NCBI GenBank assembly: GCA_905234195.1
Contig: CAJOFR010000010.1
Location: forward strand, 1-64,000
Length of the DNA: 64,000 nucleotides
Direction: 5' to 3'
Source of the DNA: an uncultured Selenomonadaceae bacterium
GTDB taxonomy: Bacteria; Bacillota; Negativicutes; Selenomonadales; Selenomonadaceae
Shown: piece by piece, positions 1 to 37,468 of the stretch
How positions within the stretch are numbered: position 1 is the stretch's first letter
How the letters are laid out: each line of letters begins with the position of its first letter
The notes under the pieces: generated by a model
What the model was told of the DNA's origin: nothing
Seen by the model: only the letters and a program-made list of their open reading frames with translations
Database searches by the model: none
Position numbers and translations under genes: made by a program

Positions 1-195
1 AAATAAGTGTGCTGCAAATAAGGAAGAAAGGCAGGAAATAAAGTAGAAAAAGTAAGCTGAAGCCGAAAGGTAACAGTGTAGAGGCAACTTGGCATTGCCT
101 TTGAGAATAAGGGCGCACGTCAGCGAATAAGGACTGACCTCTACAGAGTTCAAACTTCTCAAGAATCCCCCGCCCTTAGGCGTGGGGAGTGTCAA
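1..195 (+). mobile_element. Right end of an IS200/IS605 (IS608-type) element including an omega-RNA-like region; coding part lies upstream of the window
   Basis: Terminal hairpin CCCC-CGCC-CTTA-GGCG-T-GGGG at 167-187 followed by GTCAA ending at 195. The same terminal layout recurs at the 37158-37397 element. TCAA is the known IS608 right cleavage motif. Confidence 0.75.
60..195 (+). ncRNA. Putative TnpB omega-RNA (reRNA) scaffold
   Basis: Pairings read directly: GTAGAGG (78-84)/CCTCTAC (138-144); GCAA (84-87)/TTGC (95-98); GTCAG (119-123)/CTGAC (134-138); pseudoknot TTGAGAA (101-107)/TTCTCAA (156-162); terminal hairpin 167-187. Confidence 0.6.
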
Positions 196-212
196 TCAAG
201 GAGGATGAAAAA

Positions 213-1880
213 ATGTCAACGTTTACCGGACTCAACACGATGGTTAAGGGCGTTTACTCGAACCAGCTCGCGTTGAATACAGTCGGGCATAATATAGTTA
301 ACGCCGATACGCCGGGTTATTCTCGTCAAGCGGTGAATCCTGTCGCCTCTAAGCCGGAATATCGCGGCAGTATGTATGGAAATGTTGCGGTGGGCATGGG
401 CGTCGAAACAGAATCAATCACGCGCTCCCGCGATACTTATGCCGACGTTCAATATCGCAACGAGTCTTCAAATCAAAGCTATTACGAGGCAACCGCCACG
501 AACTTTGATAAACTTGAATCAATTTTCAATGACTCAAATGACAGCGGTATAGAGGCGTCGTTGAAGGAATTTTATAAATCGTGGGTGGATTTATCTACGG
601 ATGCATCCGCGTCCGCCAGTCGTGTTTCCGTTATCGACAAGGGAAAAACTTTTAGCGATACCATCCAAACCGCGACGAAGGGACTGCAGGAACATATCCG
701 AGATATTTACGCCGACATAAGCCTTTACGTCGACAAGGTTAATTCCATTCTCGACGACATAGTCGGGCTGAACAAAAATATTATCGCTGACGAAGCAAGC
801 GGGGCTATGGCGAACGACCTGCGCGACCAACGAGATCTTTTGACGGACGAGCTGTCCCAGTACATAAATATCACCGTGCACGAAAACAGCGTCGGCTCCT
901 ATCAGATAAGCAGCGGCGGCACTTCCCTCGTCTCCGGCGCGGACAGGCTCCACTTGCAAATGTCGGATCCCGTCCAAAGTAATTTCTACGGGATAAACTA
1001 CGGCTTGGTTGATTACACGATAAATATCAGAGAGAGTGCGACGCTTTTCCAGCCGCAAAACGGAAAGATAGCCGCCAGTTTCGACGCGATTGCAAAATCT
1101 AAATCTTATATCGACGATATGGCAAACATGGCGGCGTTCATGCTGACAACTTTAAATGATCAGCACGCGCAGGGCTATGACTTGAACGGCGACAGGGGAA
1201 TAAATTTCTACGGCATAACCGGCTACACCTACGAATACGCCTACGACGATTACGATCACTTCGATTACGTCAAGATAAAAGACGAAAACGGAAATTATCT
1301 CATGGACGACGACGGCAATATTCAAAAGTTAGCCGGCGTTGACGTTATCGAGCGTCTGAAAGTTAATGAGCAGTTCGACGAAACCGGCGGCTATAAATTT
1401 TTGGCGGCGGCAACTGCTGTCGAAGATTTTGTCGACTCTGACGGCAACGTTGCTGAAATTGAGTGGGGCAACCGCACGGCGGACGGCACCAACTCGGTTT
1501 ATATCAGCGAACTTTTCAACATGTCCTACGACAACATAGTCACGGCGGGCAGAGCGAACGCCGTAGTTATCAAAAAATATTCGGACACCTTCAGCACGAT
1601 TAATTCTCTCGGCGGGCGCAGTATTAACGATTATTATAAAACTTCCATGACTCAGCTCGGCGTAGAGGCGAAGGCTATGGATACAAAAATCGCGTCACAG
1701 GAACTTATCATGGATCAAATTCAGTCTTGGCGTGATTCAACCAGCGGCGTCGATTGGAACGAGGAACTTGCCAACATGATTAAATATCAGAAAGGCTATT
1801 CCGCTTGTTCACGTTGCCTGAACGCAATGGACGAATGTTTAGAAAAACTTGTAAATAGTACCGGCGTTGTCGGGAGGTGA
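213..1880 (+). CDS. flgK: Flagellar hook-associated protein FlgK
   Basis: N-terminus STFTGLNTMVKGVYSNQLALNTVGHNIVNADTPGYSRQ; SD aaggagg before ATG 213 (the tracked GTG 189 lies inside the IS end). Confidence 0.95.
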   Translation: MSTFTGLNTMVKGVYSNQLALNTVGHNIVNADTPGYSRQAVNPVASKPEYRGSMYGNVAVGMGVETESITRSRDTYADVQYRNESSNQSYYEATATNFDKLESIFNDSNDSGIEASLKEFYKSWVDLSTDASASASRVSVIDKGKTFSDTIQTATKGLQEHIRDIYADISLYVDKVNSILDDIVGLNKNIIADEASGAMANDLRDQRDLLTDELSQYINITVHENSVGSYQISSGGTSLVSGADRLHLQMSDPVQSNFYGINYGLVDYTINIRESATLFQPQNGKIAASFDAIAKSKSYIDDMANMAAFMLTTLNDQHAQGYDLNGDRGINFYGITGYTYEYAYDDYDHFDYVKIKDENGNYLMDDDGNIQKLAGVDVIERLKVNEQFDETGGYKFLAAATAVEDFVDSDGNVAEIEWGNRTADGTNSVYISELFNMSYDNIVTAGRANAVVIKKYSDTFSTINSLGGRSINDYYKTSMTQLGVEAKAMDTKIASQELIMDQIQSWRDSTSGVDWNEELANMIKYQKGYSACSRCLNAMDECLEKLVNSTGVVGR

Positions 1881-37132: not shown

Positions 37133-37468
37133 GTGGATGCAATCCTCAACTTTTTACCAAATACGGCGGAAAGCCCCTAGCTTTAGCTATGGGGATGTAA
37201 GCCGCTAAGATTTTATTGCATTTTGTAAATGTTTCTGCTAAACTGTGGTAGAAGATGAGCAGGGGTAAAATCCGCCTCTTCGTAAAATATGTGGGTTGGG
37301 GCATCGACCCTTGCAGGAGACCTTGTAAGACTTAAATTTTTAAGCATTGGTTGATGATAGCAGAATCCCCCGAATTTATTCGTGGGGAGTATGTCAAAGA
37401 TAGTAGGGGCTAATGTCGTCTCGCACTTTGTTTGCAAGTTGATAGATAAGTTCCTCGACAAGTGGTAA
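37133..37468 (+). pseudogene. Type I toxin module 2, disrupted by a 240-bp IS608-like element
   Basis: Removing 37158-37397 restores a 31-aa ORF VDAILNFLQIVGANVVSHFVCKLIDKFLDKW that aligns with module 1. Confidence 0.75.
37158..37397. mobile_element. IS608-type non-autonomous element (MITE), no transposase gene
   Basis: Left flank TTAC (37154-37157), right end TCAA, hairpins CCCC-TAGC-TTTA-GCTA-T-GGGG and CCCC-CGAA-TTTA-TTCG-T-GGGG, no target duplication. Confidence 0.75.

Follow-up and report, generated by a model that had tools for sequence, protein, structure and literature searches.

A protein-less, multi-copy IS200/IS605-type element with a TnpB ωRNA as its sole recognisable cargo lies next to flgK in an uncultured Selenomonadaceae bacterium

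A sequence resembling a TnpB ωRNA ends immediately before flgK in this genome, which raises the question of whether its guide regulates a flagellar gene or simply records where a mobile element has landed. Relatives place the organism in a genus of uncultured Selenomonadaceae represented by MAGs from ruminants. The window analyzed here is 64,000 nt long; it opens at base 1 of contig C10, which lies inside a repeated element. In IS608-type elements, the right end (RE) combines a guide motif, a hairpin and a cleavage motif, and the guide of a TnpB ωRNA is the sequence in the right flank, past the element's end. At this locus, the flank at 196–217 (TCAAGGAGGATGAAAAAATGTC) begins directly after the TCAA at 195 and, as the initial annotation described, carries the Shine–Dalgarno (SD) sequence (200–204) and the ATG (213–215) of flgK. 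The features are as follows.

1–195, + strand: rightmost 195 nt of a ~448-nt, non-autonomous IS200/IS605-type element, multi-copy in its own genome, with the left-end (LE) half on other contigs and a full copy in a relative
1–35, + strand: 3′ end of a conserved structured leader, ending in the RBS-like AAAGGCAGG (comparison of copies; no Rfam family)
36–46, + strand: junction where tnpB is missing and the leader is joined straight to the ωRNA (comparison with tnpB-bearing relatives)
47–195, + strand: TnpB ωRNA scaffold, including the RE (alignment with nine tnpB-borne ωRNAs, covariation, own-genome CM search)
57–76, + strand: ωRNA helix 1 (57–59/74–76 and 62–64/69–71); pair 12/33 is UA 15 times, AU 8 times and GC 6 times
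83–99, + strand: ωRNA helix 2 (83–87/95–99), 97% paired, with three pairs changed on both sides
101–162, + strand: pseudoknot TTGAGAA (101–107)/TTCTCAA (156–162), 93% paired, with double changes in three pairs
163–195, + strand: right end, with GAAT (right guide motif), hairpin 167–174/179–187 and cleavage motif TCAA at 192–195 (sequence and alignment)
196–215, + strand: flanking DNA, the would-be ωRNA guide (first ~16–20 nt; position rule of TnpB ωRNAs)
198–204, + strand: flgK SD, AAGGAGG (sequence)
213–1880, + strand: flgK, intact, 555 aa (PF22638, E = 1.2e-48; flgN–flgK synteny in relatives)

The same genome contains at least 14 left ends and at least 11 right ends of the element, 95–99% alike and located almost exclusively at contig ends. 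On contig C25, a left end continues uninterrupted through to window base 99, giving a composite element of 448 nt. A relative carries a complete copy of 447 nt (L068/L097), 92% identical and without an ORF, and further homologues of 300–450 nt occur in other relatives; neither the composite nor these homologues contain an ORF, and hence they contain neither tnpA nor tnpB. The order along the element is the TTTAT target, C.., a left guide-like GTAA, a CCCC/GGGG hairpin (LE), a promoter-like sequence (TTGACT-N16/17-TAAAAT, with TATAAT in L222), a small hairpin, the leader, the ωRNA and the RE. Both ends have the hairpins of a non-autonomous IS200/IS605 element, the LE directly follows TTAT and the RE finishes in TCAA, as the initial annotation recognized for the latter. 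There is no target duplication, the insertion motif is TTTAT/ATTAT, and joining flanks L049 and L014 precisely restores an interrupted Rpn-like ORF. Window positions 1–195 are the right part of a protein-less, PATE-like mobile element whose sole recognisable cargo is a TnpB ωRNA. In tnpB-bearing relatives, tnpB fills the joint between the leader side and the ωRNA; because this joint (28–50) falls inside contig C10, the copy at flgK can be seen to lack tnpB there. The initial annotation had placed the protein upstream of the window, but the RBS-like end of the leader is joined directly to the ωRNA, and no tnpB lies upstream of it in this copy.

Other elements were observed alongside this family. 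A second LE subtype (TTATCAAAGAGCGGCGTAAGACCCC) stands at six contig ends of the same genome (L054–L059), apparently also sense to the interrupted genes. At window positions 37158–37397 (+ strand), a second ωRNA-bearing, PATE-like element of 240 bp has a different scaffold, the target TTTTTAC, a CCCC..GGGG LE hairpin and an RE of the form ..GAATCCCCCG..GGGGAGTATGTCAA; its 3′ half matches a tnpA-fragment/tnpB element at G000:C37 (L035). A leaderless, ωRNA-only element (L237, G000:C12 4562–4690) is found right after an apparent tmRNA gene.

We quantified the conservation of the ωRNA using an alignment (A1) of window positions 47–195 with 28 relatives, nine of them taken from the 3′ ends of tnpB genes. 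These nine align across the whole ωRNA module, and because in them the scaffold and the last part of the ORF overlap (..NADVNGAANILRKSKQ..LCxGLLxxPLRIRxA*), the assignment is one of homology and not just of resemblance. Across the 29 sequences, 90.7% of cells pair, compared with at most 51.2% when the partners are slid as a control, and changes on both sides occur in 16 of 26 pairs. The covariation score is 0.353 versus 0.134 for shuffles, none of which reached the observed value (0/500), while single-strand folding alone gives a weaker signal (z = −2.2). Variation in the RE hairpin among relatives is compatible with pairing, and an Rfam search returned no family for the ωRNA. The conserved scaffold with a pseudoknot that is expected of TnpB ωRNAs is present and covaries; on this comparative evidence, the ωRNA at 47–195 is real and of the TnpB type. 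The scaffold proposed in the initial annotation is borne out in part, including its 7-bp pseudoknot, although it starts near position 47 rather than 60 and includes the overlooked helix 1. The outer stem proposed there at 78–84/138–144 is not supported: in the flgK copy its two sides match perfectly over 7 bp, yet it clashes at bases 83–84 with covarying helix 2, and it is missing or mismatched in all tnpB-borne copies and in relatives such as L071, L072 and L222.

How did the element come to lie next to flgK? Contig C6 starts with flgN (FlgN, PF05130) followed by an LE, and contig C10 starts with the RE followed by flgK. The two genes are direct neighbours in relatives, with flgN first, and this synteny suggests that the two contig starts are the halves of one copy whose middle is split over two contigs. 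The element is absent from the flgN–flgK junction in all relatives checked, whose upstream sequences were inspected. Consequently, the insertion is recent and at the species level, and the empty site would read ..AATAAAAATTTAT joined to TCAAGGAGGATGAAAAAATG. The site next to flgK is most likely where one recent copy landed, and the link to flgK incidental: the guide covers the flgK SD and ATG as first described, but only as the element's 3′ flank, and the guides of all other copies are likewise their 3′ flanks.

A regulatory reading was nevertheless worth weighing. TldRs are RNA-guided repressors, and some of them silence flagellin (PMC13418256); by analogy, a nuclease-dead or active TnpB loaded with the flgK-side ωRNA would repress flgK. 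The position of the guide over the SD and ATG and the likeness to a TnpB-type guide RNA beside a flagellar gene speak for this proposal, which the initial annotation had raised, but we regard it as very improbable. The element has neither a tnpB nor a tldR gene, its many sibling copies carry unrelated guides, and the insertion is recent. Moreover, the guide-matching DNA in situ is preceded by GTGTCAA and not by TTTAT, which prevents the guide from targeting flgK in cis and leaves an empty allele as the only place where it can act. A genome search with 19 nt of guide and up to three mismatches found no other target in trans. Finally, the relatives' TnpBs retain both RuvC Asp motifs. Two results that the initial annotation had listed as refuting its reading, the lack of a tnpB-like ORF upstream and a merely recent insertion, were both obtained. 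Together with the missing motif and the missing trans target, they led us to reject a TldR that regulates flgK.

Instead, with a probability of about 85%, we favor an account in which a solo-ωRNA element, moved and served in trans, inserted recently between flgN and flgK, with its guide directed against element-free alleles. The nuclease TnpB is guided by an ωRNA that serves as a record of the insertion site and works against copies lacking the element (PMC11870625, PMC8612924), and the protein is able to produce ωRNA from its own mRNA (PMC10278001). According to the proposed mechanism, the element would have inserted after TTTAT, as for at least 13 sibling copies, when a Y1 TnpA acting in trans recognized the LE and RE hairpins and moved it. 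TnpB from related tnpB elements would then bind the element's transcript, a candidate ωRNA, and the guide from the flgK SD/ATG side would direct a cut only of alleles in which TTTAT is followed directly by TCAAGGAGG. The predicted cleavable target for TnpB with this ωRNA is TTTAT-TCAAGGAGGATGAAAA, and cleavage of empty alleles would favor retention of the element. Transcription of the intact flgK probably comes from readthrough or starts at the promoter-like sequence of the element, with no regulation by the guide.

The proteins that would serve the element are visible in part. The element is multi-copy, but two points count against the favored account: the sole TnpA match in the assembly is a fragment, and the assembly, a MAG that is 88% complete, lacks a complete TnpB that matches. 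C-terminal pieces of tnpB with the matching ωRNA type do lie at two contig ends (C10:104825 and C26:37129) and point to a putative tnpB element that this genome carries but that was not assembled. IStron-type tnpB ends also occur at C3 and C16. TnpBs of the partner clade have the domains PF01385 and PF07282, and their predicted fold matches Cas12f/TnpB at moderate confidence (pLDDT 73); a phmmer search against the PDB gave no match at 1e-3. The RuvC residues, which the initial annotation had singled out for inspection, were read in these same-clade TnpBs of the genus: D192 and D377 are invariant, and the canonical RuvC-II Glu position holds a G. The motif ExQExSYTS is also invariant and may stand in for this Glu, so that nuclease activity in the clade is an assumption. 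Could the locus instead be a dead remnant, in which the ωRNA is a chance fossil that no longer has a role? The missing tnpB and the lone TnpA fragment would fit such a remnant, but the many near-identical copies imply recent mobility, and helices and the promoter-like sequence are preserved in divergent relatives, which leaves this explanation about one chance in ten.

The leader is the second conserved RNA of the element. It is ~158 nt long (element positions ~90–290; L036, L041; L097, L222, L225) and conserved across the genus. Its helices are kept in the 12 copies compared, and the first hairpin shows compensatory changes (AAUGGUA/UACCGUU, AACGGCU/AGCCGUU). Neither an Rfam search for a leader family nor a search of viral contigs for its motif gave a match. 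A role as the 5′ UTR of tnpB is doubtful, the leader being absent from the four leaderless tnpB elements examined.

The orientation of the insertions bears on what this leader might do. All clear coding flanks in the genome, about 13–16 of 13–16, are sense to the element (p about 1e-3 to 1e-4 versus 55–58% expected), as called by a rough coding-potential classifier that mislabels L222, whose left flank looks by eye like the 3′ end of a LysE-like gene in sense orientation. The insertion motif itself has a small bias in coding DNA (55% sense). Flanking genes are co-oriented to a varying degree (25 to 100%), and the strand that carries the element has GC skew of either sign; a replication-strand bias is accordingly not supported as the cause. 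In an IStron-like element, the leader would be a self-splicing intron that makes insertions within genes silent. The sense-only pattern despite mixed local gene orientation and GC skew, an insertion site behind TTTAT/ATTAT like that of group A IStrons (PMC4227781), a potential internal guide sequence in GTAAA, which could pair with TTTAT, and the presence in the genus of canonical IStrons with same-clade TnpB would all agree with splicing. However, the group I model (RF00028) matches neither the element nor its own genome, though it detects the relatives' canonical IStrons, the R and S motifs are absent, and the element ends in TCAA rather than TCAG/ωG. GTAA fits an IS605 left guide equally well, and in L235 the RE provides a new in-frame ATG. 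A similar leaning towards sense is seen in leaderless tnpB elements, so that the pattern might arise through selection for non-polarity, or because the exposed coding strand is targeted, instead of through splicing. A canonical group I IStron is ruled out by the negative Rfam result with positive controls in the genus and by the TCAA ends, and an IStron-like leader in the broader sense is improbable, at somewhat less than one chance in ten. A related and similarly doubtful proposal, to which we give slightly more weight, is a phenotypically silent ωRNA transposon, in which leader RNA (as ribozyme or regulator) or trimming at the SD/ATG during ωRNA maturation controls the gene that is interrupted or that lies downstream (flgK in this case); if true, it would explain why all clear coding insertions are sense.

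Two canonical group A IStrons, with a group I intron, tnpB and an RE ending in TCAG, were located in a ruminant Selenomonadaceae genus (G023:C16 29003–30900, L231; G036:C57, L232). At L235 (G014:C57), a tnpB element splits the start codon of a gatC-like gene between AT and G, and its RE supplies the in-frame ATG.

Returning to the solo-ωRNA element, its likeness to known systems is partial in each case. Like PATEs and other non-autonomous IS200/IS605 elements, it consists of ends without an ORF and is, we infer, moved in trans, but it differs in its high copy number, its conserved promoter-like sequence and its ~158-nt leader, which is absent from the tnpB relatives examined. In Halanaerobium hydrogeniformans, a PATE-like element retains 58 nt from the end of tnpB together with a 160-nt RE (PMC7290912), which would include an ωRNA region. 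With the TnpB–ωRNA systems of ISDra2 and IS608, it shares an ωRNA at the tnpB 3′ end, a pseudoknot, a GAAT...TCAA RE hairpin and a right-flank guide; unlike them, it has neither tnpB nor tnpA and inserts at TTTAT/ATTAT. Group A IStrons (PMC4227781) have the same insertion motif, the same TnpB clade in the genus and the sense orientation within genes, whereas the element here lacks a group I core, ends in TCAA instead of TCAG and has a promoter before its leader.

With any IS605 insertion, a guide that overlaps the start of a gene is to be expected and cannot serve as evidence of a regulatory role. What deserves to be followed here is the leader RNA, together with the sense-only pattern. In this genome, ωRNA-only transposons have been amplified to at least 14 copies, an observation that suggests a testable hypothesis: non-autonomous elements may use TnpB supplied in trans to secure their RNA-guided retention.
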